Shown: piece after piece, positions 1 through 59,938 of the stretch
How positions within the stretch are numbered: position 1 is the first letter of the stretch
Layout of the letters: every line of letters starts with the position of its first letter
Source: Phycisphaeraceae bacterium
GTDB taxonomy: Bacteria > Planctomycetota > Phycisphaerae > Phycisphaerales > UBA1924
NCBI GenBank assembly: GCA_019636655.1
Contig: JAHBXB010000002.1
Location: 322,537-386,536 of the forward strand
Direction of reading: 5' to 3'
DNA: 64,000 nt
Notes under the pieces: model-generated
Seen by the model: the letters and a program-made list of their open reading frames with translations, nothing else
The model's database searches: none
Told to the model about the DNA's origin: nothing
Position numbers and translations under genes: made by a program

Positions 1-2
1 TG

Positions 3-962
3 ATCGTCTCGACCACCGATGGGCCGGCGCCGACCGCACCGGCCACATCGCGCCCACCCGCGGCGTCCATCGCACCGGCTGACCCGCCGGCGGGAGGCGC
101 CGCAGGGCCGGAGGAATCTGACCTGCTTGAAGCCCTCCTGACGGGACGGGACCTGCTGCTGCCGCTGCTCGCCCTCGTGCGTCGCCGAACCGGCTCTCCC
201 GATGTCGTCTTCACCCCTCCCGGGGCGCCGGCGGCGGTGATGGGCACGGCCGAGGTCTCCGTGGTCCACCGGGGCCGGTCGCTCGGCACGCTCTCCAGCC
301 GCTCCGCCACGCGCGAGGCCCTCGCCGCCGCGGCGAACTGGTTCGGGGCGTGGGTGGCCCTGCGGGACCAGCAGGAGCAACTCCGCGATGCGGCGTTTAC
401 CGACGACCTGACGGGCGCGTTCAACCGACGGTACTTCGACCGGTTCCTCGCCGCGGCGATCGATCGGGCCCGCGGCGAGCGGCAGTCCGTAACGGTGCTC
501 TACTTTGATATCGACGACTTCAAGATGTACAACGACCGCTACGGGCACATCGCGGGGGACGAGATCCTTCAGGAAACGGTCCGCCTGCTCAAGAGCGTCA
601 TCCGCCCGACGGACAAGGTCTGCCGGATCGGCGGCGATGAGTTCGCGGTGGTCTTTTTCGAGCCCGCCGGGCCGCGCGACCCATCCAGCAAGCCGCCGTC
701 GAGCATCTGGGGGATCGCCAGCCGCTTCCAGCGGCAGATCTGCGAGCACCGCTTCCCGAAGCTCGCGGAGAAGGCCCCGGGCACGCTCACGATCTCGGGC
801 GGACTCGCCACCTTCCCGTGGGACGGCACGACACCCAAGGAACTCGTCGCGCGTGCCGATGCCCTCGCGCTCGAAAGCAAGGGCAAGGGCAAGAACGTCA
901 TCACCCTCGGCCCTGGCGCAGAGCGTGTGTGCAAGGTCGACTTCGGCAGCCGGCCGGAATAA
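3..962 (+). CDS. Diguanylate cyclase (GGDEF domain), 5' end outside window
   Basis: The frame is open from the window edge, so the true start lies upstream; an internal GTG at 177 is only the first in-window start. The C-terminal ~175 residues are a GGDEF domain that makes cyclic di-GMP from two GTP. The catalytic motif is intact (RIGGDEFAVVFF, about nt 625-660). An RPTD sequence sits five residues before GGDEF, which is the spacing of the inhibitory RxxD I-site, so product feedback is expected. The domain opens with the usual DDLTGAFNRRYFD. The visible N-terminal part is Ala/Pro-rich and then a short GAF-like stretch (VSVVHRGRSLGTL), so the missing N-terminus may be a sensor. No EAL domain follows. 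Function is confident; the sensor and its signal are unknown. Confidence 0.93.
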   Translation: MVSTTDGPAPTAPATSRPPAASIAPADPPAGGAAGPEESDLLEALLTGRDLLLPLLALVRRRTGSPDVVFTPPGAPAAVMGTAEVSVVHRGRSLGTLSSRSATREALAAAANWFGAWVALRDQQEQLRDAAFTDDLTGAFNRRYFDRFLAAAIDRARGERQSVTVLYFDIDDFKMYNDRYGHIAGDEILQETVRLLKSVIRPTDKVCRIGGDEFAVVFFEPAGPRDPSSKPPSSIWGIASRFQRQICEHRFPKLAEKAPGTLTISGGLATFPWDGTTPKELVARADALALESKGKGKNVITLGPGAERVCKVDFGSRPE

Positions 963-9226: not shown

Positions 9227-11587
9227 TCACCCACACGCACCGATCGAGCTAAACCACGCGTTCACAAAGACCGCGATATCCGTCGGCGTCACCTCGCCAT
9301 CACCGTTGAAGTCCGCCACAAGGGTGCCGGCGCCAAGGTCCTGCGCCCACGCGTTCACGAACTGGGCCAAGTCCACAGGCTGTACCACGCCGTCGCGATC
9401 AAAGTCCCCGGCGCACGCCGGCGTCGGGCACCCCACACGCACCGCGGCAAAGTTGTCAACCGCCGCCTCGACAATCGAGCCCGCCCCCTGGTCCTGAGCG
9501 ATGAAGCGCACCTTCATCGTCGCCGTGGGAGTCATCGCCGGCGACAGCAGCGACAACCGCCACGACGCTGACCTCCAGCCGCCCACCGCCTCCGCACCGG
9601 CCGGTCCGACCGTCTCGGCGCGCCGCCACGTGGCGCCGTTGTCCGATGACACGTCGATGAGGAAGGTGTCCGCCGCGGGGGCGGCCCCCTGGTTGTTCGA
9701 ATACCACCGCCAATATGAGATCAGCCCATCGGCCGATCCGGCGAGGCTGAAGGTGGGGCTGGTCAGCGTCGTCTGCCCACCATCCACATCCGCCTGTCCA
9801 GCCGCACCCCCCACCGTCCCCTGACCGGTGAAGAAGCACTGCGAACCGGCGTGAGCATCCTCGGGTTGGGCGGCCGTGCCGATGGGGTCTCCCCGCACCC
9901 ACTGCCCGCTCGTCGCATTGTCCTGCGGCGACCCGACGGTCCACCCGAGATTGGTCTCGAACCCATCTGAGAACGCCGCCACGCTCTGCATCGCGGCGAG
10001 CTCAATCGCGCCATTCGGACCCGCGGCGGGGTACCACACGGTCTCTCCGTCGACGGTCTGAGCCTCAAGGTACACCTGCACAACGGAGTTGCACGGCCCG
10101 GCCTGCACCATCGCTGTGAAGGTGCCGTCGCCGCCGTCGGTCAGCGTGTTGCTGGTGAACGCCGCCGAACGGCCGATCCGCGAGTAGAGGCGGGCCGATC
10201 CGGGAGCGGGCTGCTTCATGCCGCGCCGGGCCTCGAACGTGATCGGCGTCGTCGTCCCGGCCTCAACCATCACGGGCGTCCCCGTGGGGAAGCCGAGGTA
10301 CAGCCGGTGATCCAGCAGCCACCCGGCCGCCCAGGCGATCGCGTTGTAGCACTCCGTCGCCGATGGCACGATCTGGTCGGCGGGCAGCGTAAACCCGTTC
10401 TGGCCGGTGTCCCGAAGTTCGAAGCCATACGCGAGCGCGCCGGCCACCGCGTACCCCCAGTCGCCCGATGCCCCCGACGCCGGATAGATCGTCGAGTACG
10501 TCGGCCCCGCGCGATACGCCAGCCCGCCGGTCGATTCGAACGCATTCTTCATTCCCGCGTTGAGCGTCTCGAAGACGCCCGAATCGCTGGGGAGCTCGCT
10601 CGTGTACGACCACGGCGACAGGATCAACTGCCCGTACGAATGAATGTCCACCGCGAACACCGTCCTCGGGTTCGCCAGCAGGAAATCCCGCATGTTCTGC
10701 GTCTCCGGCTCGGAGAACGGCCCCGGACCGCGATACGTCTCCTCCGCGGGATTGGTGGCCGCCCCCTCGCCGCCCCACTGGTAGCCCCAGTTCCGGTTCG
10801 GATCGACGCCAATGGTGCCGTTCCCATTGTCGCGCCGGTTCTTCCGCCACATGCGATTGTTCGTCCACGTGTACACGAACCCATCCGGGTTCACGATCGG
10901 TACGATCAGGATCTCGTACCCGTCGACGAGCCGTCGGACACTCGCATCCGATGCATACGAGTTCACCAGGCGGTCCGCGATCCACATCGTCGTCGCCCCC
11001 GTGATCCACTCCCGCGCATGCTGGAGACTGTAAAGCACAATCTGCGGCTTCACCCCGGCTCCGCCCACGATGCTCGTGATCTTGATCCCGAACACCGTCC
11101 TCGCCTGCAGCGACTGCCCGACCGTGAACCGCGAGCACAACTCCGGATGCGCGGCGACAAGCGTGTCCACGAACGCCGAGATCTCGTCGTACGTGCGGTA
11201 CGTCGAGAAGTACCCCGGCCCGCGGAGCCCCGCCGCCTCCTGCTCCCGCACCGCCGCGATCTGATCCCGCTCCGCGTCGATGAGCCGCTGCACGTCGTCG
11301 ATCACCACTGTCGACTTGAGGCCGGCCGCCTTCAGCCCTTCCTGCGCCTCCGGAGAGACCAGGTAGTCCGACACCCCGACCACAACCCCCCCGCACCGCC
11401 ACACCTCGCCCCCGATCGCCTCCATCGTCTGCAGGTCCCGGATGGATCCGACGTTGACCCGGACAACACGGTATCCGTCATACCTCACGACACTCTGCGG
11501 TACCTGCCCGTGCAGCGGCGCACCGGCGAGAAGGACCGCAACAACGCCCGCAAGCGCCATGCTCAGGGCGCGAACTGAGTTCACCAT
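9227..11587 (-). CDS. Secreted zinc carboxypeptidase (M14) with C-terminal GC-type dockerin-like tail
   Basis: 786 residues. The ATG at 11587 is chosen over upstream starts because GGAGGAGA lies 8 bp before it and a signal peptide (RALSMALAGVVAVLLAG, cleavage after APLHG or AP) follows at once. The M14 core has the zinc motif QHAREW at ~189, DPNRNWGYQWGG (substrate Arg/Asn), zinc ligand His in DIHSYGQLI, and the catalytic Glu in FELRDTG at ~387. Residues ~590-715 look like a secreted beta-sandwich. The last ~62 residues hold two EF-hand-like units (DFDRDGVVQPVDLAQFVNAW and DFNGDGEVTPTDIAVFVNAW) and end SSIGACG. It probably digests peptides outside the cytoplasm. It is the only one of the seven GC-tail proteins outside the 49-60 kb block. 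Confidence 0.93.
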   Translation of the reverse strand: MVNSVRALSMALAGVVAVLLAGAPLHGQVPQSVVRYDGYRVVRVNVGSIRDLQTMEAIGGEVWRCGGVVVGVSDYLVSPEAQEGLKAAGLKSTVVIDDVQRLIDAERDQIAAVREQEAAGLRGPGYFSTYRTYDEISAFVDTLVAAHPELCSRFTVGQSLQARTVFGIKITSIVGGAGVKPQIVLYSLQHAREWITGATTMWIADRLVNSYASDASVRRLVDGYEILIVPIVNPDGFVYTWTNNRMWRKNRRDNGNGTIGVDPNRNWGYQWGGEGAATNPAEETYRGPGPFSEPETQNMRDFLLANPRTVFAVDIHSYGQLILSPWSYTSELPSDSGVFETLNAGMKNAFESTGGLAYRAGPTYSTIYPASGASGDWGYAVAGALAYGFELRDTGQNGFTLPADQIVPSATECYNAIAWAAGWLLDHRLYLGFPTGTPVMVEAGTTTPITFEARRGMKQPAPGSARLYSRIGRSAAFTSNTLTDGGDGTFTAMVQAGPCNSVVQVYLEAQTVDGETVWYPAAGPNGAIELAAMQSVAAFSDGFETNLGWTVGSPQDNATSGQWVRGDPIGTAAQPEDAHAGSQCFFTGQGTVGGAAGQADVDGGQTTLTSPTFSLAGSADGLISYWRWYSNNQGAAPAADTFLIDVSSDNGATWRRAETVGPAGAEAVGGWRSASWRLSLLSPAMTPTATMKVRFIAQDQGAGSIVEAAVDNFAAVRVGCPTPACAGDFDRDGVVQPVDLAQFVNAWAQDLGAGTLVADFNGDGEVTPTDIAVFVNAWFSSIGACG

Positions 11588-44400: not shown

Positions 44401-47400
44401 CCGCGTTCAGGTTTGCGGCCACCACGGCGATCGGGTCGCCGACCGCGCCGCCGCTGTCGGTACCGGAGATACCCAGGAACGAGCCGATCAACCGCTGCGT
44501 CGATCCGGGCGCGCCGGTCTGTGTGCGGCCCAGATCGCCCGCGGCGATGTGCACGCGGTCCACCTGCGCAACGTCGAGCATGACGATGTCGCCGCCGGCG
44601 GTGAGGTTCTGCACCAGGTTGAGGCGCCCGCCGGTCTGGTCGATACGACGGACGTCGATCTGGCCCTGGCCATCGATGATGATCGAGGAGAGCGCCGCGC
44701 CCCCATCGGTCGTGACCACGATACGGCCGATGGAGATCCGGCCCGACTGCTGCGTCCCGCGGATCAGCAGCGAGGCGCCGCCGACCAGGTTGACGTCGAT
44801 GCGGGAGATCGCCACGCCCTGCGAGCCGTTGATCGGAAGCACGCGGATCTGGCCGACCGAGCCGGCAAGGCCGTTCTCGATGGAGATCGTGACCGTGCCG
44901 CCGGCGTCGTCCGTCAGCGTCACCGGGGCGCCGGGGACCAGCGGGCGGAACACATCGGGGTTGAGGCCCGACTGGATCTGCGTGAACGAGGCGAACCGCA
45001 GGTCCGAACCGGCGCCGAGCGTGAACCGCGGCGTCGCCGCGTCGATAAGGCCGCTGCCGGCTTCGTCGGCGATGAACTCGTCGATGATGGAGCCGGGCGA
45101 GGTCGTGACGTTGAAGTTGTCGCCCTGGATCCGGGCGCCGACCGAGATCCGGCCAATGTCGCCACGTCCACCCGCCAGGCCGGTGCGGATCGAGACGGCG
45201 CGATCAGCGCTCGGGTACCGGCCCCGATCCTGATCGAACCGGACCGCACCTCTAATGTCGATCTCACCGATCGAGCCGCTGACATCCAGCGACAGATCGA
45301 GCACGTCGCCATTGGTGCTGTCCGCCGCGACAAGCGGATTGAACCCGGTCCGGAATGTGCCGAGATTACCGCCGATCGAGAACTGCGTACCCGGCACGCC
45401 GACACCGCGGAAGCCCATGACATCGGCGCCTGTGATCACCGCATGCAGGCTTCCCGCGACCGCGATCGATGATTCTCGCAGATCCAGCAGGTCCGCGATG
45501 TCGTCGGCCGTCGTGATGATCGCCGAGGGGTCCGAATCAGCCCCCGCGCCATCGACAGAGCCGACGCCGACCCGCAGCATCCCCATGGAACCGCTCTGAA
45601 CGATGATCGAGGTCGGGGTCTGCGTGAACCCCATCCGGGCACCGACGGTGACGCCGCCAAGAGTGGTCGATGCCATGCCCGAGAGCACGACCTCGTACTC
45701 GTTGGAACCCAGCCGATTCGCCCCGTCCTGCGGCGAGTTCATGACCAGGTAGTACACATCCGATGTGGTCGGCATGAACTGAAGACGAATACCGAGGCTC
45801 AAACTCCCCGCGAGCCTGTTCTCGCTCACCTCCGGGTACTGTTGCGACGACACCGTCCGGCCGAAAGCGTCCACGATGCGCGCCGTCGCCCACGTATCGA
45901 AGCCGCGGCTGGCATCGAACCCGATATCGATGAAGTCAAACACCACATCCGCGTTAACCGCAATCCCCGCCGTCGCCGAAAACGCGTAGACGTCCGCCGA
46001 GTCCCGCTTCGTCGAAATCGGATCGCGGTTGCCCATCGTGCCGACGATCCGCACCGAAGTGTTCGGACTGCCGACATACTCGGCGCCTTGGATCGTGTCG
46101 TTGCGGTACAGCCCCAGCCCCATCGCCATGGCCTGCTCTGGAAAGAACAGCCCGAAGAAGAAGCTGTTGAACTGGTTCTGACTCAGGAACGCGGCGTCCA
46201 TCAACTCTTCGATGGTGTCGCGGATATCGGCGTCCGTCTGATCAGCGAAGGTGTAGATGACCTCCCGCTCCTGGTACGCGCGGAAGTCCACACGGGAACG
46301 AGTCGGGTTGTTGACATCACCGAGCACGGTGATGTTCATCGCGTTTCGACCGCCAATCGTAATCTGGCCGGCCGTGCGACCCACGGTCATGTTCGAGTTG
46401 GTAAAACCGGTGAACCCGCTGTCTGGATCGATCACCACGTCGTCCACGTCAGGCACGTCATCCCGCACCCACAGCCCCGAGTCGGACGCAACGAAGAGCG
46501 AACCCAGGTCGCCGTTCACGGAGATGTTGCCCAGCTGGACTCCAGTCGACAGCCTCCCCAGTGAACCGCCGAACTGAATCTGCCCGTGCATGATCCCATT
46601 GATGTTGACCGTGCCCCAGTTCAGCCCCGCCGGAGCGAACAGCCCCTGGTTGGGGTTGCGGAACAGCGTGGAATCGGTGATCTGGGCGCCGTTCAGGAAG
46701 TTCTGCCACGTTGAGAACAACTGCTGATCGCGAACCACCAGTTCGCCCAAGTAGGACGCGGTCGTCGCATTGTTCCTGACAAACGGGCTACCGATGACAA
46801 TCGACGCATTGCCCGCGGGGAGGCCGATCACAGTCGGCGTATCCGTGCCTTGGGTAAGCGCATAGCCGAAGCCGGCCTGCTCGAAATCATCTAGCAAGCC
46901 CGCAGCGGAACCGGGCAGCTTGAAGAGGAAGCCGTTCTCAAAGGCCCGAGTATCTTCATCCGGCGCCTGACCCGTCGTGATCTCGCCGCCCCACATCGTG
47001 AGCTTCGACCGCGAGTCTCCCGCCAGGAAGTTGATCCGACCGATACCGTCGTTGAAACGAGGAACACCCGTATCCGTCGGATCGACGATCGCCACCTGGG
47101 AGCCCTGTGGAATCCCAAGGGCGATGGTCGCAACCATGTCACGGCCGTACGCATCAAACACCTGGACCGAGGTCCCCACCGGACCCGAAAGTACTATTTC
47201 CGCGCCAGCAATACGGGCGTCATGGACCGGCCCAAACCGGCCTTGAGGGAACGAAACCGTAATGTCATCAATCCGAAAAATGTCCTGATAGGTCTGGTTG
47301 TCTGGCGGCGGCTGCGCGGAAGAGAACCGCACCGTGTCGAATCCATCGGACAGGTTGAAATCAAACCTCATCAGCGGCTGACCATTGCCCAAGACCGGAG

Positions 47401-49642: not shown

Positions 49643-52348
49643 TCAGCCGCACATCCCCCGCAGCGCCCCGAGCCACGCGTTGATAAACGCCGCGATATCC
49701 ACCGGGTCGACGGTGCCCGAGCCGTCATAGTCCGCGCTCAGCAGGCCGGAGGACACCGACTGCGTCCACAGGTTGATGAACACCGCGATGTCGGTCGGCG
49801 TGATCGCCCCGTCGCCGTTGCGGTCCGGGTTCCGAGGATCGCCCGGGTAGGAGTTCTCGTTCGCCGGGTCGGCGCAGACGTCCATCTCGGTGCGGTCAAA
49901 GAAGCCGTCGCTGTCCCGGTCGATCCCGATCCGCACCTCGCTCCCCGCGGGGACCACCGTGTAGGTCAGCTCCGATCCCGGACCGGCGAGCGACAGCAGC
50001 TGCGCCGGCGAGAGCGTCGCTTCGGAGTTGCGGTCCGGCCGGAAGGCGCCGCCCCCGATGTTGCTGTAGACGTAGCCGCGGACGATCCCCCCCACGCGGC
50101 CCTTCACGACAAGCCCCACCGCCTGCGACTGCGCCATCGAGATCATCGAGCCGAGCAGTGCCTGCTGCGGCGCCGGCGGCGAGGGGGACTCCACGGTGGT
50201 CTGCGCCCCCACCGCCGCGTGCGTCTGCGTCGAGAAGGAGAACATGAACGCCTCGAGGTCCCGCCGCTGCTGCAGCGCCACCGACGGGTCCGTCGCGAAA
50301 CGGAAGACCGGCGACTGCAGGAACTCGACGAGTGTCGCCGAGGACCCGTCGTGGATAAATCCGAACCCCCGGTTGCTCTGCGGCGAACGGCTGAACCCGC
50401 TCTTCTCGTGCATGTTCCGCAGCTGGGGCACCTTCATCGACTGCGACTCCAGCAGCGCCTGCCCGGAGATCACGATCGGGCTCGATCCCGTCGGCAGCGC
50501 GTGGCACGACACGCACGTCAGCACCCCGCCGTCGAACGGGACCGTCTGGAACAGCACGGCGCCGTTCGCGGGGTTCCCGTTGCCCAGCGACGTCTTGAGC
50601 GAGCCGTCGAGGTTCCGGTTCGGGTTGGGCGGCGGCGTCAGCGATGCGACGAAGTCCTCGACCGCCGAGATCTGCCCCGGCTCCAGCGGAGCCGACCGCC
50701 CCTGCAGGCTCATGAACGCCGCGTTGAACATCCCCAGGTCCTCCCGGTCGCCCCGCCAGTGCAGCGGCTCGGTCCCGGTGATCCCCACGAGCGTCTGCGT
50801 CGTCATCGGCCCCTTCATCGGGTGCCAGTCCTCGCATGTCCCAAGCCCGCCAAGGCCGCCGTTGCAGTTCTGATTGAACGGCTTGACCGTCCCGGCCGGG
50901 TTGCCCAGGTCCCACGCGAGGTGGTCCGTCCTCCCGTCGATGTGGCACGCCGCGCACCCGGCCTGCCCCAGGCCCGACGTCAGGTGGGCTCCGTAGAAGT
51001 ACTGCCGCCCGGTCGAGATCGACGCGGGCGTCGGGTCGTAGAACGGCGTCACGTGGCTCAGCGTCAGCGACGCGGTGTCCACCACCGCGACCGTCGCGCC
51101 GAACTTCCCGATCACGTACAGCCTCGCGCGCGACTCGTCCAGCACCAGCCCGGTCGGCCCGAACGCCACATCCTGCACCTGACCGACCCTCGCCCCGCTG
51201 CCGTCGAACACCGACACATCGTTCGACCCCATCCCCGCGACGTACCCCCTCGTCCCGCCCGCGTTCCACACCACCGCCCGCGGGTCCGCCACCGAGAGGT
51301 TCCGCATCGGCTCCGGAATCGAGGCCGTCGCGTACGTCAGGTGCGGGTTCAGATCCGTGATGCTCACCGCCCCAGGCGACGCCGGATTGAACCGCGCCAT
51401 CACCGATCGCACGAACGTCCCCTGCACGTTCGGCTCGAACCGGATGTGGTTCGTCGCATCGGTCCCGACCACCGTCACCTGCCCGGCCGGCCCCGCCGCG
51501 ATCGCCATGTTCGCGTTCATCAGGCCCGTGGCGTAGGTCACGCTCAGGCTCGCCGCGTCGATGATCGCCACATCGTGGTCGTGCAGGTCCCACGTCACCG
51601 CTCCCGTCCACGCGTGCCCGTTGTCATCGACCCACTGCCCCCCCACCTTCTTCACGATCAGCCCCACCGGCGGCGCGCTCGGGAGCCCCGCGCTCATCGG
51701 GGGGCTGAAAAGCGTCCCCGCGTTCGGCGGCGGGTTCGGCCGCCCCGGGTACGGGTTCGCCGCGCCCGACACCACGCTCTGCCCGAGGATCGTCGTCCCA
51801 TTCCCCGATTCAAACACCGCCGCGTACACCCGCGTCCCATCGGTCGCTAGCGCCCGCGGGTCCTCGCCCGCGATCGCCACCACCGTCGGCGGGCTCTGCG
51901 GCGACACCAGCGAGAACACCAGCACCTGGTTCAACTGCGACGCCGACACGAACGCCCGCTTGCCCGCGAACACCACGTCGCACGGCTCATCCCCCGCGGC
52001 GAGCGTCCGCACCACGCGCATCGTCGTCAGGTCCACGATGCTCACCGAGTCCGAGATGTGGTTCACCACCCACGCCTCGGTGTTCGACCTCGCACGCACC
52101 GACACCGGGTCCAGCCCCACGCTCACCGATCCCGCCTTCACCGGCGGCCCGGATCGCGTCACGTCGAACACCTCCAACCGGTTGTCCGCCGTATTCACCG
52201 CCAGCAGCAGCCCGCGGTCCGGCGTCAGGTCGATCGGATGGACGTGCGGCGACTCCCAGTTCACGAAATCCGACTGCCCCCTCGCGCCAGACGCCCCGGC
52301 GACCACGGCCGCGCACGCGGCGATCAGAAGAGTCGTAGCCTTGCTCAT
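49643..52348 (-). CDS. Secreted diheme cytochrome c / propeller protein with GC-type dockerin-like tail
   Basis: 901 residues with a signal peptide (TTLLIAACAAVVAGASGARG). Residues ~30-440 form a YncE-like beta-propeller (repeated units such as VFDVTRSGPPVKAGSVSVGL and SVSIVDLTTMRVVRTLAAGD). Two haem c sites follow, GCAACH at ~464 and TCVSCH at ~611, in a MauG/cytochrome c peroxidase-like region (MKGPMTTQTLVGI, LHWRGDREDLGMFNAAFMSL, KVPQLRNMHEKSGF). Family members use paired haems for peroxide reduction or protein oxidation. The C-terminal two EF-hand-like units (DRNGDGAITPTDIAVFINLW, DYDGSGTVDPVDIAAFINAW) end in GMCG. It is probably a surface or periplasmic redox enzyme. No maturation genes are in the window. 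Confidence 0.9.
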   Translation of the reverse strand: MSKATTLLIAACAAVVAGASGARGQSDFVNWESPHVHPIDLTPDRGLLLAVNTADNRLEVFDVTRSGPPVKAGSVSVGLDPVSVRARSNTEAWVVNHISDSVSIVDLTTMRVVRTLAAGDEPCDVVFAGKRAFVSASQLNQVLVFSLVSPQSPPTVVAIAGEDPRALATDGTRVYAAVFESGNGTTILGQSVVSGAANPYPGRPNPPPNAGTLFSPPMSAGLPSAPPVGLIVKKVGGQWVDDNGHAWTGAVTWDLHDHDVAIIDAASLSVTYATGLMNANMAIAAGPAGQVTVVGTDATNHIRFEPNVQGTFVRSVMARFNPASPGAVSITDLNPHLTYATASIPEPMRNLSVADPRAVVWNAGGTRGYVAGMGSNDVSVFDGSGARVGQVQDVAFGPTGLVLDESRARLYVIGKFGATVAVVDTASLTLSHVTPFYDPTPASISTGRQYFYGAHLTSGLGQAGCAACHIDGRTDHLAWDLGNPAGTVKPFNQNCNGGLGGLGTCEDWHPMKGPMTTQTLVGITGTEPLHWRGDREDLGMFNAAFMSLQGRSAPLEPGQISAVEDFVASLTPPPNPNRNLDGSLKTSLGNGNPANGAVLFQTVPFDGGVLTCVSCHALPTGSSPIVISGQALLESQSMKVPQLRNMHEKSGFSRSPQSNRGFGFIHDGSSATLVEFLQSPVFRFATDPSVALQQRRDLEAFMFSFSTQTHAAVGAQTTVESPSPPAPQQALLGSMISMAQSQAVGLVVKGRVGGIVRGYVYSNIGGGAFRPDRNSEATLSPAQLLSLAGPGSELTYTVVPAGSEVRIGIDRDSDGFFDRTEMDVCADPANENSYPGDPRNPDRNGDGAITPTDIAVFINLWTQSVSSGLLSADYDGSGTVDPVDIAAFINAWLGALRGMCG

Positions 52349-52499
52349 GGATCTGGTCTTTGCTTGGGTTCTGGCGTGCGCGGGCGGCGAATGCCTGGAT
52401 CTCAGAGTGTACTCCCGGACCGATCAGGTGCCACGACCGGCCCCCAGTCCCGGACGGGGACGAAGCCCTGTAACACCCTTCGCATGCGGCGTGTAACGG

Positions 52500-53348
52500 T
52501 TGGAGCGAATGTGCATGCAGGCCCAGGAACCGAGATCCAGCCACGGCCCCGCCCCGGCCGCTCGCCTCAAGTGGCGACTCGTCGCGGGCTACTGGGCCGT
52601 CCAGGCTGTCGTCCTGTATGTCGGATGGCCCATTCTCACAGACTTCGGCTGGAGTGACCTGGTCTTTTCCCGCGGCTGGCTCGCCTGGGGTGGCGGATCC
52701 ATCGCCGTCATCACCACCCTGCAGGCCCTGTTCCTGCTCCCTATCCGCCGGCCCGGCCTGACCAGCGAGGGAACGTGGTCGGTCAGGACCAGCCTCGCCA
52801 TCGCGGGGCTCGCCATCGCGTTCATGATCATGGCGATCCTGACCACCGTCACCGATATCTTCTTCCTCAGCGATATCGACCAGCCCCTGCGCGACTGGGG
52901 CTACCTCGCCGCTTTCGGCGCCACGCTCGCGATGTTCTGGACCATCGTCACCCCGCTGGTCTTCGCCTTCTGCCGCAACCGCCCGCGAGAGTCCGCGCTC
53001 GCCCGCCTCGCCGCTCTGATCTTCACCGGCACCGTCATCGAAGCCGCCTCAATCATCCCCGTGGACGTGATGGTGCGCCGCAAATCCAAGTGCTACTGCG
53101 ACCAAGGCACGTTCTGGAGCCTGACCATCTGCGGCGTCGTCGGCACGTTCATGCTCGGACCGGCCGTCTACCTCCCGCTCCTCGCCCGCCGCCGCCAACG
53201 CTACTACGCCGGCCACTGCGCAGTCTGCGGTTACGACATGTCCGGCTGCATGACCGCCGACCGCTGCCCCGAGTGCGGCGCCGGCTGGCGCGCGTCCCGC
53301 GGCGACATCAGCACCCCGCCGACACCGCCGCGAGCCACCGCCCGATGA
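52500..53348 (+). CDS. Membrane protein with C-terminal CGYD-CPECG zinc ribbon
   Basis: 282 residues from a TTG at 52500; ATGs at 52509 and 52515 are good alternatives. Five or six hydrophobic helices (LVAGYWAVQAVVLYVGWPIL, LAIAGLAIAFMIMAILTTV, LAAFGATLAMFWTIVTPLVF, SLTICGVVGTFMLGPAVYL) lead to a cytoplasmic-type zinc ribbon: GHCAVCGYDMSGCMTADRCPECGAG. This CGYD/CPECG pair is common at the ends of planctomycete membrane proteins, and its function is unknown. The last 41 bp overlap, tail to tail, the end of the 53308-54471 gene on the other strand. Gene limits on both sides are supported, so the overlap looks real. Confidence 0.75.
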   Translation: MERMCMQAQEPRSSHGPAPAARLKWRLVAGYWAVQAVVLYVGWPILTDFGWSDLVFSRGWLAWGGGSIAVITTLQALFLLPIRRPGLTSEGTWSVRTSLAIAGLAIAFMIMAILTTVTDIFFLSDIDQPLRDWGYLAAFGATLAMFWTIVTPLVFAFCRNRPRESALARLAALIFTGTVIEAASIIPVDVMVRRKSKCYCDQGTFWSLTICGVVGTFMLGPAVYLPLLARRRQRYYAGHCAVCGYDMSGCMTADRCPECGAGWRASRGDISTPPTPPRATAR

Positions 53349-54471
53349 ACACCGCGATGTCCGCCGGTGTCACCGCCCCATCGTGGTCCACATCCGCGAT
53401 CGGCACGCCATAGGTCAGCGACGCCGTCCACGCGCCGACGAACTGTGCGATGTCCGCGGGCAGCGCCGAGCCGTCCCCATCCCAGTCTGCGACGCACTGC
53501 GTCCGCCCGCACGGGAACTGCCGGAACCACATCAGCGACTGAGCCCCGCCCCCATCCACCGCCATGAACAGGCCCCGCCGCTCCGAGACACAGTCCGTCG
53601 CCGCCATCACCGCGAGCCCCTCCAGGTTCGCGTCGGGCGCCGACCCCGGCGGCGGCAGGTACGTCGCCAGGTCGTTCAGCACCCGCTCCCCGCCCTGCCC
53701 CGGCGACGACGCCAGCGTTGACACCTGCACCGTGTTGTGGTTCTCGCCGTGCAGGATGAACATCAGGCCTGTCGAGCGGTCGAAGAACAGTTCCGCCGTC
53801 TCCGTGAAGTTCGTCGCGTAGACCCCGACGAAATCAAACGTCGAGTTCCCCCGATCCAGGTCGAAGACGTACACCTTCCCGCCATTCTGGTGCCCCACGA
53901 ACATCAGCCCCCCCATGCCCCGCTGGCTCACCCGCAACTGCCCCGCCAGGTCGACGAACCCCGCAGCCCGCAGGTACGCATCGGGCACAAACGCGAGCCC
54001 CTCCGCGCCGAGCCCCCCATCCAGCGGCAGGTGCGGCCGCGTGTTCCAGTTGTTGGCGAGCACCGCCGTCCCGTAGGTCGAAACGCTGTACTCCTTGATC
54101 CGCTCCTCCCCCTCGATCATCACGTACACCGTGTCCTGCGACAGGTCCGCCTGCGTGATCGCCTCCAGATCCCCGAACCCGGTCCACTCCCCGCGCAGCC
54201 CGCTCCGAGTCTCCACCGCAAACCCCGCCCCGTTCTCCTTCAGCACCCAGAACTTCGACGCCGCCGCCCCGGGCCCGTTGCGGCAGACCCACAGCCGGCG
54301 CGTCAGCGGGTTCCAGAACGCGCCCGAGAGGTCCACGTGGAAGTCGTTGACCCCCGGCCCCTCAACATCGGTCAGATTCGTCGCCGCGCCCCACGCCTCC
54401 GCGGGCCATGGCGCCGGCGGCGCCCCCACCACACCAAGCACAAGCGCCGCCACCATCACGCCGACAGGCAT
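53308..54471 (-). CDS. Secreted esterase-like propeller protein with GC-type dockerin-like tail
   Basis: 387 residues from the ATG at 54471, with a signal peptide (PVGVMVAALVLGVVGAP). The body resembles SdiA-regulated or phytase-like propeller proteins: DLSGAFWNPLTRRLWVCRNG, GDLEAITQADLSQDTVYVMIEGEE, LPLDGGLGAEGLAFVPDAYL, GLMFVGHQNGGKVYVFDLD. These folds handle phosphoesters or unknown ligands; no catalytic site can be assigned. Two EF-hand-like units (DWDGDGSALPADIAQFVGAW and DVDHDGAVTPADIAVFIGRW) end in VSAGC with Cys as the last residue. Its 3' end overlaps the membrane protein gene on the plus strand by 41 bp. Confidence 0.85.
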   Translation of the reverse strand: MPVGVMVAALVLGVVGAPPAPWPAEAWGAATNLTDVEGPGVNDFHVDLSGAFWNPLTRRLWVCRNGPGAAASKFWVLKENGAGFAVETRSGLRGEWTGFGDLEAITQADLSQDTVYVMIEGEERIKEYSVSTYGTAVLANNWNTRPHLPLDGGLGAEGLAFVPDAYLRAAGFVDLAGQLRVSQRGMGGLMFVGHQNGGKVYVFDLDRGNSTFDFVGVYATNFTETAELFFDRSTGLMFILHGENHNTVQVSTLASSPGQGGERVLNDLATYLPPPGSAPDANLEGLAVMAATDCVSERRGLFMAVDGGGAQSLMWFRQFPCGRTQCVADWDGDGSALPADIAQFVGAWTASLTYGVPIADVDHDGAVTPADIAVFIGRWLAAVSAGC

Positions 54472-54501
54472 CACGCGACTCCGGCCCCGCCAGGCCCGAG
54501 T

Positions 54502-55368
54502 CTACTCCCCGCCCCGCAGCGCGACCCCCTCGCCCTCAAGAATCCGGTACTCCGTGCCCGATCGGGCCCTCACCACGGGCCGCGCCACACTCGCTCCGTC
54601 ACGTCCGAAAACCTCGATCGCGTCCAGCGTCACGCGGCCATCCACCGCCGCCTCACCCGTCGCCCCGAGCGGGAACGCCGCCATCCCCGACGCCAGCAGC
54701 GACACCTCAAACTCCTCCCCGAGCGTGATCGGTACCCGCTCGCTGCGGTGCACCCCTTGAGCGCCAAGATCGATCGGCACCTCCAGGTCCGCCGCGTCGC
54801 CGCTGCGGATGAACACGTGCAGGTCCGCCCCGCCCGCCGCGTGGTGATCCCCCGCCGGGCCGACCACGCTCCCCGAGACGCGAAGCCGGTAGACCACCCA
54901 CGCCCGGCTCCCCGGCGCGCCCGCCGCGGTCACCACCAGCCGATCCGTAAACCCCGCGGCTGCCGACGCACCATTCGCATCGAACGACGCCGCAACCGCC
55001 TCAACGCGCGCCCGCACGGACATCGCGCCAAACGCCGCGTCCGCGTCGGCATCCGCCGCGAGCCGGCCGCGGGACGTGAACCCGCTGTAGGCCATCGTGG
55101 CCCGCGCGTCCCCCTCGCCGACGTGCTCATCGGCGACAATCCCGCGCGCCGTCCGGTACCACGCGCGCGCACGCGACCGCAGCGTGACGCCCCCCACCGG
55201 CTCATTCGCCCGCGGCTTATCACCCGGCGCGGAAACGGCCGGCACGGTGGTGTCCGCGACGGCCGTCAAAGGAGGACCTGACTTCATCGAACCGCCAACT
55301 CCGGCCGCTCCGGCGCACCCGCCCAGCACCGCAAGCACGCACACGGCCCCGACGCTCCGGCGATTCAT
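54502..55368 (-). CDS. Lipoprotein of unknown function, coupled to the upstream GC-tail gene
   Basis: 288 residues from the ATG at 55368. The start codon overlaps the TGA of the preceding gene (ATGA), so translation is likely coupled; longer reading upstream is a shadow of that gene. The signal MNRRSVGAVCVLAVLGGC has a lipobox LGGC with Cys 18 lipidated. The mature part is a beta-rich domain with Arg/Asp/Glu-rich strands (TLRSRARAWYRTARGIVAD, GRVTLDAIEVFGRD, SGTEYRILEGEG) and no known family. It lacks the GC tail of its neighbours. It may be the membrane partner of the protein encoded just before it. Confidence 0.75.
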   Translation of the reverse strand: MNRRSVGAVCVLAVLGGCAGAAGVGGSMKSGPPLTAVADTTVPAVSAPGDKPRANEPVGGVTLRSRARAWYRTARGIVADEHVGEGDARATMAYSGFTSRGRLAADADADAAFGAMSVRARVEAVAASFDANGASAAAGFTDRLVVTAAGAPGSRAWVVYRLRVSGSVVGPAGDHHAAGGADLHVFIRSGDAADLEVPIDLGAQGVHRSERVPITLGEEFEVSLLASGMAAFPLGATGEAAVDGRVTLDAIEVFGRDGASVARPVVRARSGTEYRILEGEGVALRGGE

Positions 55369-56237
55369 CCGCACCCGCCCGACAACGCGGCCACCCAGGC
55401 GCCGATGAACGAGGCAATGTCCGCCGGCTCCACCGTCCCGTTGCCGTCGAAGTCTCCTGCGAGCGTCCCGCCGGAGATCGAGTTGAACCAGTCCAGCACG
55501 AAGATCGCGATGTCCGTCGGCTCGATCACGCCGTTCCCGTCCCGGTCCGCCGGGCACGGGGGCACGCTGATCGTAAAGGCTGTTCCGGCGAAGTTGTTGA
55601 ACACCGCAGCGCCCGCCGTCAGCGCGTAGTCCGCGGCGTTGGTCGTGCTCCCCGCCGAGGCCGTCCCGCTGAACCGCAGCGCCTGCAGACCGGCCGTCGG
55701 CAGCGGGCCCGCGAACGAGGGGCCGAAGTTGCCGTTGCTGTCGTTGGTGAACTCGCCCGTCGTCGACCCGGTGTACGCCGCGCCCCCGAACGACACCGAC
55801 CACAGGATCGAGCCGAAGTTGTCCTCGAACGTGACCCGCCCCGCCGCGAGGTACGACGCCGGGATCGGGCTGGTCATCACGAAGTCCGCCTGCATCGCCG
55901 GCGTCGAGTGGTTCCCGAATCCGGGGCTCACCACCAGCACGCGCGACCCCAGCCCCGACCCCACCAGCTGGTCCGGCGAGTTCGGCGGGAACGCGATCAG
56001 CACGACCGGGTTCAGCCCCGCCGCGTCGTACGCCACCAGCCGCGAGTTCTGCAACTGGTCCTGCGGAAACGCACTCCGCATCCGCAACTGGATCGCCTGC
56101 GCCGTGGTGTCGCCGTTCACCCCGCCGATCACCATCTCGATCTGCATCAGGTGAAACGTCGCGTGCGCCAGCGCCGGGAAGACCGTCAGAACAACCGCGG
56201 CGATCAACCCGCCGCGGACTCTTCGGTGCATGATCAT
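55365..56237 (-). CDS. Secreted beta-sandwich protein with GC-type dockerin-like tail
   Basis: 290 residues from the ATG at 56237, with AAGGAGA six bases upstream and a signal peptide (RGGLIAAVVLTVFPALAHA). I do not recognise the body: FHLMQIEMVIGGVNGDTTAQ opens a domain that looks like the planctomycete lamin-tail-like or LTD-type beta domains (RLVAYDAAGLNPVVLIAF, VTFEDNFGSILWSVSFGG). The tail has two EF-hand-like units (DRDGNGVIEPTDIAIFVLDW and DFDGNGTVEPADIASFIGAW) and ends LSGGCG. It overlaps the start of the lipoprotein gene by 4 bp. Confidence 0.82.
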   Translation of the reverse strand: MIMHRRVRGGLIAAVVLTVFPALAHATFHLMQIEMVIGGVNGDTTAQAIQLRMRSAFPQDQLQNSRLVAYDAAGLNPVVLIAFPPNSPDQLVGSGLGSRVLVVSPGFGNHSTPAMQADFVMTSPIPASYLAAGRVTFEDNFGSILWSVSFGGAAYTGSTTGEFTNDSNGNFGPSFAGPLPTAGLQALRFSGTASAGSTTNAADYALTAGAAVFNNFAGTAFTISVPPCPADRDGNGVIEPTDIAIFVLDWFNSISGGTLAGDFDGNGTVEPADIASFIGAWVAALSGGCG

Positions 56238-56321
56238 GGTGCGTCTCCTTCGGGCCTCGCCGTGCGACTGCGAGCCCCTCTACCGCACTATGTCACGCCC
56301 CGCCCGGCCCCTTGCACCCCC

Positions 56322-57059
56322 TCAGCACCCCCCCTGCACGGCCTGGAGCCACGCCTGGATGAACGCCGCGATATCCACCGGGTCCACCGTCCCGCTACCG
56401 TCAAAGTCCCCCTCCAGCGTCCCCCCGGCCACCGACGCCAGCCACGCCTGGATGAAGACCGCGATGTCCGTCGGCTCGACCTCGCCGTTGCCGTCAAAGT
56501 CCGCCGGGCACGCCCCGGTTCCCTCGACCCGCAGGCACAGCGCCGCCGAAGCCCCGCCACTCCACTCCCCGAAGTCCGTCGTCGCCGTGTACCCACTGCC
56601 CGTCGCGGCGAAGTTCCACACGCCGTTCTCCTGCGCCTCGGCCGACGACTCCGCCACGACCCAGTACTTCCGCCCCGACCGCAGCAGCGGGTGCGACGAC
56701 GAGTTCACGAACTGCTGCACCGGCTGCCACCCCACCGCCGCGACATTGATCTGCCACGTCTCCAGTACGGTCCCCGACGGCACCGAGACGCCGCCGCCAA
56801 ACTCGTCCGACGCATCCGTCTGCAGCGTCAGCGTAACCGATGGATGCCCACCGCCGAAATCGTTGTTCATGAAGTACACCCCCACCCGGTCCAGTGTGTA
56901 GCTGCCCGAGGGCGCGAACCGCGCCGCCACCGACTGGGCGTCGAAGACATCCGGGCCCCAGAAGCCGAGCGCCCCGCCCGGCGCATCGGTGTCGTGCAGC
57001 ACGTCCGCAACACACAGGCTCGAACACGCCAGAACAACCGCACACGCCGCTCGCTTCAT
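56322..57059 (-). CDS. Small secreted beta-domain protein with GC-type dockerin-like tail
   Basis: 245 residues from the ATG at 57059, fixed by GGGAGG seven bases upstream and a short signal peptide (MKRAACAVVLACSSLCVADV). The ~180-residue body looks like one jelly-roll (AARFAPSGSYTLDRVGVYFM, HPSVTLTLQTDASDEFGGG, GRKYWVVAESSAEAQENGVW), typical of planctomycete proteins with a hydrolase- or carbohydrate-binding fold, but no family can be named. The tail units are DFDGNGEVEPTDIAVFIQAW and DFDGSGTVDPVDIAAFIQAW, ending AVQGGC. The two units are almost identical to those of the neighbouring genes. Confidence 0.82.
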   Translation of the reverse strand: MKRAACAVVLACSSLCVADVLHDTDAPGGALGFWGPDVFDAQSVAARFAPSGSYTLDRVGVYFMNNDFGGGHPSVTLTLQTDASDEFGGGVSVPSGTVLETWQINVAAVGWQPVQQFVNSSSHPLLRSGRKYWVVAESSAEAQENGVWNFAATGSGYTATTDFGEWSGGASAALCLRVEGTGACPADFDGNGEVEPTDIAVFIQAWLASVAGGTLEGDFDGSGTVDPVDIAAFIQAWLQAVQGGC

Positions 57060-57153
57060 GATCCGGCCTCCCTGTGCAAGACTCGCGGCAGCACCATCGG
57101 CTCCGCCGCCCCGCGCCCGCATCATAACATTGGATCTAGCCCCTACAACCCCC

Positions 57154-57190
57154 AAAATGACAAGCCCGGCCGTTCGGTCACGGCCGGGCT
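57154..57190 (-). terminator. Intrinsic terminator of the lectin gene
   Basis: A stem of 57163-57173 (AGCCCGGCCGT) with 57180-57190 (ACGGCCGGGCT) and a ~6-nt loop; on the minus strand TTGTCATTTTG follows. It closes the 57221-58300 gene before the next GC-tail gene. Confidence 0.8.
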
Positions 57191-57220
57191 CGGCAACAGG
57201 CCTTGTCCGATCGCCAGGGA

Positions 57221-58300
57221 TCAGCAGCCGTTCTGTACCGCGTTGAACCACGCGTTGATGAAGCCGGCAATATCCGCCGGTTCTACCACGCCGTTGTTAT
57301 CCCAGTCGCCCGCCACGCCGCCGAACGACACGCTGGTGAACCAGTCGTTGATGAACGCAGCGATATCCACCGGCTCGACCACCCCGTTGTGGTCCCAGTC
57401 CGGCGGGCACGAGGGCGTGCCGATCTCCACCGTGCCGTACACCACCACCGCCGTCGGGTTCACCGAGTTGTCGTTCCACAGCCCGTTGGACCCGAACATC
57501 TCCGTGTAATCCTCGACGCCGCCGGAGTCGTTTGGCTCGCCGCCGCTCCAGTTGGTAAACCCCGGCGTCTCTCCACTGGTCCAGACGAACGTGCCCTCGC
57601 TGGCGATGTCGTTGTACCCCAGCCAGAGCCGCCGGCCCGTGCCGCCGAAGTTCCCGAGGTTCTCGCGAACCCACTCGTTCTCGGCCGCGTCGTTGATCGT
57701 CACCAGGTGCCCGCCCATCGACACCGCCGTGGCCTCACCGACGGTCCACGGCGTCCGCTCCAGCAGGTAATAGGTGTGCCCGTTTGCGGGGTTCACGATC
57801 GGCCCGCCCAGCACTGGGGTCAGCCCCGAGAGGATCTCGAGCGTCCCCGTGCCCGTCGCGTCCGCCGCGTACGAGCCCAGGCGAACCATGTACTGCTGCC
57901 CCGCCGTCGCGACAAAGTCCAGTTCGCTCCGCGTGCCGCAGGAGTCGTCGTTGCAGACCAGGATCCCGCCCGCCTCGGGGCACGGGGAGCACCCGGCGTA
58001 CACCGCCAGTTTCGTGTCGTACGTCGCCGTGCAGGTCCGCATCTTCGTCGGCCCCGACACCTGCGCCGTCCAGCAGTACCACGTGTCGTTGAAGATCTGG
58101 TCCTGGCTGAAGAACAGGCACGATGGGCTCGACACGCCGTCGGTCGTCGCCCCCGTGGTGTCGAACGCCACGCTCGCAAAGCCCGCGATCGCCGTCGGCG
58201 CATCGCACGCGTCGTTCACCGGCTGCGCCATCGCACCCGACCACGCCGCCACCGCAACCGCCGCCGCCACGATGCCCCGACTCGCTTGTCGACCGTTCAC
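57221..58300 (-). CDS. Secreted C-type lectin-like protein with GC-type dockerin-like tail
   Basis: 359 residues from a GTG at 58300, fixed by AAGGAGGT just upstream and a signal peptide (GIVAAAVAVAAWSGAMA). Residues ~33-160 are a beta domain of the PPC-like type with Cys (NDACDAPTAIAGFASVAFD). Residues ~172-285 are a C-type lectin domain: GHTYYLLERTPWTVGEATAV, LVTINDAAENEWVRENLG, RLWLGYND, then GGEPNDSGGVEDYTEM and LWNDN, which give the EPN and WND calcium/sugar ligands (mannose-type). The tail units are DWDHNGVVEPVDIAAFINDW and DWDNNGVVEPADIAGFINAW, ending NAVQNGC. It should bind a glycan at the surface. Confidence 0.9.
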   Translation of the reverse strand: MNGRQASRGIVAAAVAVAAWSGAMAQPVNDACDAPTAIAGFASVAFDTTGATTDGVSSPSCLFFSQDQIFNDTWYCWTAQVSGPTKMRTCTATYDTKLAVYAGCSPCPEAGGILVCNDDSCGTRSELDFVATAGQQYMVRLGSYAADATGTGTLEILSGLTPVLGGPIVNPANGHTYYLLERTPWTVGEATAVSMGGHLVTINDAAENEWVRENLGNFGGTGRRLWLGYNDIASEGTFVWTSGETPGFTNWSGGEPNDSGGVEDYTEMFGSNGLWNDNSVNPTAVVVYGTVEIGTPSCPPDWDHNGVVEPVDIAAFINDWFTSVSFGGVAGDWDNNGVVEPADIAGFINAWFNAVQNGC

Positions 58301-58375
58301 GCTGACCTCCTTCGGTTGCCCCACGAGCGTGGGCCCTTTCTCACTCCGATCGCCAGCGACCCGGACTCACGCCAC

Positions 58376-59938
58376 TCAGCACCCGGTCGTCAGGCGACTG
58401 AACCACGCCGATACGAACGCGGCGATATCCGCCGGTTCCACCACTCCGTTCTTGTCATAGTCACCGCCCAGCGTCCCGTTGGCCACCGAGTTGGCCCACA
58501 GATTCACGAACACCGCGATCTCGGTCGGCACTGGCGGAGGCGGGTTCCCCAGCGTCCCTTCGATGTTCACCCGCTGGGCGTACACATCGTTGTTGCCCGT
58601 CCTGTTGTCGTGCCAGACCACCAGGCCCGTGCCGTCAGGCCGCGACGACGCATCCAGCCGGCCCTTGCTCCCGCTCCCGGTCCCGACACCCAGCGGCGAC
58701 ACCAGCCAGTTCGGATTCCCCAGCGTGTCCACCTTGAACCCGCGCACGGCGGCGCTCGCCCCGGGCTGGTCGAAGTAGTACACCATCGCGCCGTTCACCG
58801 AGTTCACAACCTTGACGAACGAGTTCTGCATCGTGCTCAGCGGCAGGAACTCCACCCCCGAGTCCGTCCACAGCCTCGCCCCGCCCGCGCTGATCTTCTG
58901 GCCGGAGAGCCCCCACTGGCTCTGCACCGTGTTGCTCTCGGTCCAGAACAGGAACGTCTCGCCCGTGCCCCCGTGGTACGCAATCGACGCCGAGAGCTTG
59001 TAGTTCGCCGTCGTCGACCCCGCGACGCCGCCGTGCGGGAAGACCTCGACGCCCGCCGCGGACACCCGCTGCACGTACGCGTTCCGTGTCCCGCCCGTCT
59101 CGTACCAGCCATAGACCGCCCCGCCCGCGCCATCCGACACAAACGTCGGGAAGTACCCGTTCTGCACGCTGTTCGCGTCGAACACGATCACCGGGTTCCC
59201 CGAGTTCCACAGCGGCGCTCCCGCAGCGTCGTACTTCTGCGTGTACAGGTGCTTGTTCGACAGGAAGTTGCCGACGTACCGGATCCACAGCGCGATCACC
59301 GCGCCGTTGTCGGAGCCCACCAGCTCGCTCACCGCGTACGACCCGACCGCCGGAGCGCTTGCGATGCCGTCGCTCACCCACTGCGTCGCCCCCGCCCCGT
59401 CGAGCCGCTGCATCCGGAACCCGGCGCCCAGCGACCACCCCACCACCACGCTCCCGTCCGACGTGCACGCCACCTTCGGGTTGTTCCCGCCCGAGGTCGT
59501 CGACACCGTCACCGATCCATCGACTCCCCACGGCATCGAGCCCGATGGCGTCACCTTGTTCACCGACACCTGCACCGACCCCGACCGGTCATCCCGGTAC
59601 GCCAGGTACGCGTTCCCCGCCCCGTCCACCGCTAGCCCGTAGTCCTGCGTCGACGACTGCCCGCCCGCCGCCACCAGCATCCCGTCCGCGCCCAGTTGCG
59701 GGTTGCCGCGGCAGTCCAGCCGCTGGATGTACATCCCGTACCCCGACCCGCGGTTGTCGTAGAACGACACCCAGCACCCCCCATCGCTCGTCGAACGAAC
59801 TTTGGGCTGAACCGAATCCCCGGAAATGTTTGTGATGGCCAAGTTGGTTGACGAATCAGACGACCACTGGGCAGCCGCCCCAGTAGCCAGTACGCTCACG
59901 ACAGCCAGCGCCCCGACCCATCGCATACGCTTCTTCAT
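58376..59938 (-). CDS. Secreted beta-propeller-like protein with a half-degenerate GC-type tail
   Basis: 520 residues from the ATG at 59938, with AGGAGAG eight bases upstream and a signal peptide (VGALAVVSVLATGAAAQ). The body is a run of beta-propeller-like units (repeats such as DNRGSGYGMYIQRLDCRGN, DDRSGSVQVSVNKVTPSG, DNRTGNNDVYAQRVN), a pattern of D-N-R-x-G followed by Q-R, without a known catalytic motif. At the C-terminus the first EF-hand loop is lost: GNPPPPVPTEIAVFVNLWAN keeps only the helix, while the second (DYDKNGVVEPADIAAFVSAW) is intact. It still ends in TTGC. Its upstream region is shared with the 60106 gene. Confidence 0.85.
   Translation of the reverse strand: MKKRMRWVGALAVVSVLATGAAAQWSSDSSTNLAITNISGDSVQPKVRSTSDGGCWVSFYDNRGSGYGMYIQRLDCRGNPQLGADGMLVAAGGQSSTQDYGLAVDGAGNAYLAYRDDRSGSVQVSVNKVTPSGSMPWGVDGSVTVSTTSGGNNPKVACTSDGSVVVGWSLGAGFRMQRLDGAGATQWVSDGIASAPAVGSYAVSELVGSDNGAVIALWIRYVGNFLSNKHLYTQKYDAAGAPLWNSGNPVIVFDANSVQNGYFPTFVSDGAGGAVYGWYETGGTRNAYVQRVSAAGVEVFPHGGVAGSTTANYKLSASIAYHGGTGETFLFWTESNTVQSQWGLSGQKISAGGARLWTDSGVEFLPLSTMQNSFVKVVNSVNGAMVYYFDQPGASAAVRGFKVDTLGNPNWLVSPLGVGTGSGSKGRLDASSRPDGTGLVVWHDNRTGNNDVYAQRVNIEGTLGNPPPPVPTEIAVFVNLWANSVANGTLGGDYDKNGVVEPADIAAFVSAWFSRLTTGC

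Follow-up and report, generated by a model that had tools for sequence, protein, structure and literature searches.

The window analysed here, a 64,000-nucleotide stretch of a Phycisphaeraceae genome, contains all seven open reading frames that a sequence-only reading had described as exported proteins sharing a paired EF-hand tail with a cysteine at its end. An N-terminal hydrophobic stretch of the kind expected of an export signal is visible by eye in each of the seven, and every one either ends in cysteine or has it as the penultimate residue. The same reading held that Gly-Cys closes the tail every time; glycine precedes the cysteine in five of the seven, the exceptions being alanine (SIGACG) and methionine (LRGMCG). 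Two tail units had been credited to all seven proteins and are complete in six, while in the product of gene 58376-59938 calcium loop 1 has been lost in frame (at about 58510-58560), with no upstream cysteine nearby. A second cysteine, overlooked in that reading, stands at position -3 of loop 1 in five of the seven tails, which leaves genes 49643-52348 and 58376-59938 as the two exceptions to the pair. The tails are as follows, 'stapled' standing for a putative disulfide between the two cysteines:

9230..9430, minus strand: putatively stapled dockerin tail of the M14 carboxypeptidase (gene 9227-11587), with Cys 725 at -3 and Cys 785 next-to-last
49646..49837, minus strand: dockerin tail of a beta-propeller/diheme cytochrome protein (gene 49643-52348), with C-terminal Cys 900
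53311..53511, minus strand: putatively stapled dockerin tail of gene 53308-54474, with Cys 327 and Cys 388
55368..55571, minus strand: putatively stapled dockerin tail of gene 55365-56237, with Cys 228 (55554-55556) and Cys 289 (55371-55373)
56325..56522, minus strand: putatively stapled dockerin tail of gene 56322-57062, with Cys 185 and Cys 246 (PF00404 above cut-off)
57224..57424, minus strand: putatively stapled dockerin tail of a C-type lectin protein (gene 57221-58324), with Cys 306 and Cys 367
58379..58528, minus strand: incomplete dockerin tail of gene 58376-59938, with helix 1, unit 2 and C-terminal Cys 520 retained

The bodies that carry these tails are diverse. Gene 9227-11587 matches the zinc carboxypeptidase model PF00246 as well as PF00404 above cut-off, and gene 57221-58324 matches the C-type lectin model PF00059 above cut-off. 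In gene 55365-56237, Cys 228 and Cys 289 are the only cysteines of the whole protein and are exactly the terminal pair. The product of gene 49643-52348 has no cysteine at -3, the nearest upstream one being Cys 825, 17 residues before loop 1. Its beta-propeller body contains two CxxCH haem motifs (Cys 465/468 and 612/615), and close relatives in the genomes G316 (60% identity) and G296 (47%) likewise end in a dockerin tail.

A profile built from six of the window tails found 102 matches in the 3.66-Mb genome, far beyond chance, which in part supports the earlier suggestion of a common tag on exported proteins with unrelated bodies, here spread over the whole genome, if not that of a lone processed cysteine (see below). 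Three of these matches, at C2:391286, C2:48068 and C3:297862, contain one internal stop each (TAG, TGA and TAG, respectively), which may reflect truncation of the tail or an error in sequencing. The type I dockerin model PF00404 is above cut-off in three of the seven window proteins and has 39 matches in the genome at E-values up to 0.001. The name GC-type dockerin, used in the sequence-only reading, proved to be correct, being that of the NCBI model NF041540, although a literature search for this phrase found no paper. NF041540 matches six of the seven window proteins at E-values up to 0.003, near full model length in five; one is unmatched, and the best of them (26.1 bits) stays under the model's cut-off of 29 bits. 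A dockerin with a C-terminal cysteine, a feature taken from the name of the model and not from its alignment, is present in all seven. The model also matches tails that lack the terminal cysteine: G316 has 32 matches among those listed, yet none of its 11 tails that were read ends in cysteine. Genomes with at least 28 NF041540 matches at E-values up to 0.01 are called tail-rich in the comparisons below, which were split by hand (cohesin, VKOR and the giant neighbour). Among the matches listed they make up 16 of the 41 genomes of the order, including 10 of 10 in the same family and six of eight in a second family; a count of 111 matches per genome is to be read as at least 111. Across 294 genomes, at least three were matched by the tail profile of this genome (best 23 candidates per genome, E-values up to 1e-6).

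The fold agrees with the profiles. An AlphaFold2 model of the tail of gene 56322-57062, computed from 46 aligned tails, reached a pLDDT of 94.5 and a pTM of 0.81, with two helices at residues 17-33 and 48-64. The first 16 rows of a Foldseek search with this model were solved dockerins, as were the first 19 rows of VIA-align. The Foldseek E-values were weak (best 0.23) and the Z-scores of VIA-align, 5.1 to 3.5, fall in a range for which the tool issues a caution about common arrangements; such modest values are as expected of any 66-residue domain. By profile and fold together, the tail is a dockerin-type domain in which a single helix follows each of two F-hand calcium loops.

The terminal cysteine of this domain depends closely on the one at -3. 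Tails of sister genomes were located with a core model free of cysteine, and 216 of 229 extracted tails from 18 genomes were usable, seven having been dropped as partial (the incomplete tail of gene 58376-59938, a C-terminal-only exception, is taken to be among these) and six as lying far from the C-terminal end. Both cysteines occur in 132 tails, that at -3 alone in one, the terminal one alone in 13 and neither in 70; hence the terminal cysteine is found in 132 of the 133 tails with a -3 cysteine versus 13 of the 83 without it. Outside this genome the corresponding numbers are 50, 1, 6 and 66, and within it the two occur together in 82 of 93 usable tails. For comparison, cysteine makes up 281 of 22,773 body residues (1.2%). 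A looser count, admitting any cysteine up to six residues before loop 1, gave 137 tails with both, 12 with the N-terminal one only, eight with the C-terminal one only and 59 with neither, for a stratified odds ratio of 59 in a test that corrects for genome only, the tails not being independent of one another. Genome by genome, this looser association was significant in G251 (Fisher P = 0.001), G270 (0.003), G278 (0.001) and G311 (0.029), and not so in G298 (0.40), G307 (0.09) and G316 (1.0), where the terminal cysteine is absent from all 11 tails.

Sampling favours paired tails, given that the profile of this genome itself contains both cysteines and that G002, G034, G095, G172 and G319 were sampled from the best-ranked NF041540 matches. 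A fairer set is formed by G251, G270, G278, G298, G307, G311 and G316, sampled mostly with the Cys-free Pfam model, for which the looser table, summed by hand, reads 30 both, 10 N-terminal only, four C-terminal only and 55 neither. The fixed cysteine that had been expected throughout the wider family is only partly borne out: six of the seven Pfam-sampled genomes mix paired and unpaired tails, and the seventh, G316, has no terminal cysteine. The dependence of the two cysteines on each other also shows on a single gene: the tails on M14 bodies (n = 12) have both cysteines in three cases and neither in nine. The M14-like tails of G270 and G311, which were filtered out of the M14 analysis, have neither a -3 nor a terminal cysteine, the body match in G311 being partial. 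An odd number of cysteines is found in 30 of 93 tails of this genome and 22 of 123 others, often by virtue of a third cysteine at loop position 4. This residue of the F-hand (D-x-D-C) occurs in loop 1 of 13 of the 93 own tails, and also in the second loop of a variant in which the linker is longer (for example L117, L123, L126 and L133). Several of the loop 1 cases follow Ig-like repeats with cysteines of their own.

A second arrangement of paired cysteines was found in the linker between the two units of 21 tails, all from sister genomes (23 under looser linker bounds). Helix 1 ends in a Trp or Phe, and counted from this residue the first of these cysteines is at +3 in 21 of 21 tails; in 20 of 21 the second stands at -3 relative to loop 2. 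In tails from outside this genome the terminal cysteine takes the equivalent place, at +3 or +4 counted from the Trp or Phe that closes helix 2 (48 of 50 tails); within this genome helix 2 extends further and the cysteine is mostly at +8 (64 of 82). Under the pseudo-twofold symmetry of the domain, the linker and terminal pairs are therefore mates of each other. Both pairs are rarely present in one tail, with two tails having both, 48 the terminal pair only, 19 the linker pair only and 54 neither (P = 0.0012); a single linker cysteine was seen in four further tails. A symmetry-related pair in mid-domain points to a structural disulfide, since a cleavage or lipidation signal would have no reason to be there.

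These observations bear directly on the earlier proposal that the terminal cysteine is cleaved, lipidated or joined to another molecule, for instance by a sortase-like enzyme. In its favour, all 145 tails with a cysteine in the C-terminal flank have it at most three residues from the end, and Cys-bearing C-terminal tags with dedicated proteases do exist, such as MYXO-CTERM (PMC11980579). The picture of a lone, fixed cysteine is, however, not supported: it is strictly dependent on the -3 cysteine, it has mid-domain mates related by symmetry in the 21 tails just described, the number of residues after it varies from 0 to 3, and the residue before it is glycine in only 24 of the 55 tails counted outside this genome. 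The helix reaches the end of the domain, with no hydrophobic stretch beyond the cysteine, and the transmembrane helix that would follow in a tag of the MYXO-CTERM type is absent from the 145 tails. Exosortase (PF09721), considered as a sorting enzyme, was rejected, as it occurs in all 41 genomes of the order, tail-rich and tail-poor alike, irrespective of tail number. We regard processing of the cysteine as very improbable. As a separate observation, in L155 and L157, from the tail-poor genomes G231 and G318, dockerin-like pairs are followed by what by eye is a PEP-CTERM-like end in place of the terminal cysteine.

A structural role has a precedent in cellulosomal dockerins. In the dockerin of C. 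thermocellum, Tyr-5 is described as stacking on Pro-66 and so holding head and tail together (PMC4728124), an intramolecular clasp credited there to Slutzki et al. (2013). The 2mte chain has the Tyr and Pro letters at 5 and 66, with the first loop Asp at residue 7. Residues 2..64 of our model align to 1..64 of 2mte, which places Cys5 and Cys66 of the model at approximately residues 4 and 66; by this superposition the pair would fall at about the site of the head-to-tail clasp. The strong covariation makes it very likely that, in the GC form, the -3 and C-terminal cysteines form a disulfide that staples the ends of the domain. Such a bond would be a covalent version of the cellulosomal clasp, and the linker pair of some sister tails would do the same job on the other side of the domain. 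Covariation alone cannot tell a bond within a molecule from one between molecules, and the cysteines might instead link tail to tail or tail to receptor. We give this very little credence, given that both ends adjoin in known dockerins (PMC4728124) and that the linker pair occupies the place related by symmetry to that of the terminal one. If the intramolecular staple is right, the terminal cysteine of GC-type dockerins has a structural cause and there is no new Cys-processing enzyme to seek.

The tails mostly follow the genome and not the body to which they are attached. The nearest tail comes from the same genus for 180 of 216 tails (93 of 93 in this genome and 87 of 123 in the others), compared with an expected share of 0.23. 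In particular, one M14 peptidase, with bodies 35 to 44% identical across genera, wears the dialect of each genus: its tails place their own genus first (rank 1 of 10) in nine of ten evaluable cases, four of which come from a single genus, although three M14 tails score higher against their best counterpart on an orthologue from a different genus than they do on average against own-genus tails. Genus information peaks at F-hand position 10, at 1.35 bits in each repeat, the next best position having 0.88, and the two repeats have the same residue at position 10 in 64% of same-genus pairs versus 9% of different-genus pairs. According to PMC4728124, the C. thermocellum dockerin contacts its cohesin through residues 11, 12, 18 and 19 in that paper's numbering, which on the 2mte sequence are F-hand positions 10, 11, 17 and 18. 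At the contact positions 11, 17 and 18, genus information is no higher than at positions 13, 14, 16 and 20.

Recent duplication or gene conversion is not the cause of this uniformity, as synonymous sites are saturated. Synonymous codon agreement within the genome was 0.538, against 0.536 expected from codon usage, over 1,595 pairs of 40-50% amino-acid identity, and only the few closest of 3,321 tail pairs clearly exceed that expectation. The uniformity is explained by an old founder spread or by selection by a common partner. The former leads to an alternative in which the tail is a stabilising C-terminal cap, held by calcium and a disulfide, that has no shared receptor and owes its dialects to the founder. 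The pairing and symmetry of the cysteines speak of stability only, no receptor has been found, and an ancient founder spread would equally leave synonymous sites saturated. This alternative is nevertheless unlikely in our judgement, as the dialect seen on orthologous M14 bodies is that of the respective genome, both repeats have their maximum of genus information at a contact position, and one surface is common to unrelated bodies. A shared genus-specific receptor is proposed instead to account for one dialect per genome on such unrelated bodies.

The sequence-only reading had regarded the machinery that reads these tails as undescribed, and indeed no recognised reader emerged here: none of cohesin, exosortase, VKOR and a giant neighbouring protein tracks the tails. 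VKOR, one route to disulfides in exported proteins, was considered as a mark of disulfide capacity and rejected, being present in two of the 16 tail-rich versus 16 of the 25 other genomes, contrary to expectation, a distribution that counts against the proposed disulfide. The giant neighbour (38489-48127; 3212 aa) was likewise rejected as a receptor; relatives identified through a 1198-aa part of it occur in 12 of the 41 genomes of the order, namely five of the 16 tail-rich and seven of the 25 others. It has no Pfam or NCBIfam match at E-values up to 0.1, and near its N-terminus there is a stretch LEALEQRTLM, which we take to be a motif of planctomycete type.

Cohesin (PF00963), the known partner model, was above its Pfam cut-off in none of the 16 tail-rich genomes, a result that a strongly diverged cohesin could still escape. 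The best match in this genome has an E-value of 0.466 and lies in a frame with a stop. In the order, cohesin is above cut-off in two of 41 genomes, G220 and G309, both tail-poor, and in a phylum-wide draw in 33 of 294 genomes, this one not among them. A receptor in the form of a diverged cohesin missed by the Pfam model, binding the same stapled plug, would fit a domain that is a dockerin by profile and fold, and a cohesin/dockerin 'planctosome' with M14 peptidases has been proposed for Nemodlikiaceae (PMC6461901). In addition, a member of the same family, G278, has one cohesin match below cut-off (E-value 2e-4) in L303 1165-2868. Against this stand the lack of any match above cut-off in the tail-rich genomes, the broken frame of the best one here, and the fact that the cohesin-bearing G220 and G309 hold only 0 and 2 GC-type tails; we consider such a receptor possible but rather unlikely. 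The G278 open reading frame was itself rejected as a scaffold, appearing by eye to be metalloprotease-like with an inner dockerin, as was one in G300 with a weak cohesin-like match, which by eye resembles a subtilisin-type protease ending in a dockerin.

The best reading of the tails, to which we assign a probability of roughly 0.6, is that of a dockerin plug stapled by a putative disulfide and fitting a putative genus-specific receptor. The plug would probably dock many exported proteins onto one shared receptor that differs between genera. That this receptor would be something other than a cohesin recognised by the Pfam model is suggested by the absence of such matches, and here we consider the chances to be even. 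A wider proposal, a third kind of dockerin system in which stapled plugs on tens to hundreds of exported proteins per genus meet a non-cohesin receptor that co-changes with them by genus, is tentative, and we would put the odds against it. If the docking reading is right, a whole order carries dockerin plugs on its exported proteins without a known socket. The dialects would then provide a handle on the receptor, in which changes are to be expected at the face that contacts F-hand position 10. A further use of stapled plugs could be as stable, oxidation-locked docking tags.

Several known systems invite comparison. MYXO-CTERM, GlyGly-CTERM and PEP-CTERM, like the tails described here, mark numerous exported proteins of unrelated kinds with a single short tag at the C-terminus. 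They are brief signals that membrane proteases or transpeptidases recognise, whereas each of the present tails is a calcium domain with a fold of its own, and its cysteine is not followed by a hydrophobic stretch. The 'planctosome' of Nemodlikiaceae similarly has planctomycete dockerins on peptidases including M14; the model (PMC6461901) includes cohesin-bearing adaptor and anchor proteins, in contrast to the present genome, where none is above cut-off. The closest relatives are the type I dockerins (PF00404) of cellulosomes. Doc48S (PDB 2mte) has the same fold, two F-hand units, internal symmetry and an adjacent head and tail, with Tyr-5 and Pro-66 where the present tails probably have a covalent cysteine pair. 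The clasp of Slutzki and colleagues likewise ties the N-terminal segment of a dockerin to its C-terminal one, by hydrophobic stacking in that case and probably by a disulfide here, with the linker pair as an alternative. The cellulosomal system further differs in that its bodies are cellulases, unlike those found here, and in having cohesins, of which this genome has none above cut-off. The tails of this genome are dockerins of a known kind and of an already named subtype; what is new is that they are without a recognised cohesin, that they have genus dialects, and that they have a probable staple with symmetric alternatives.
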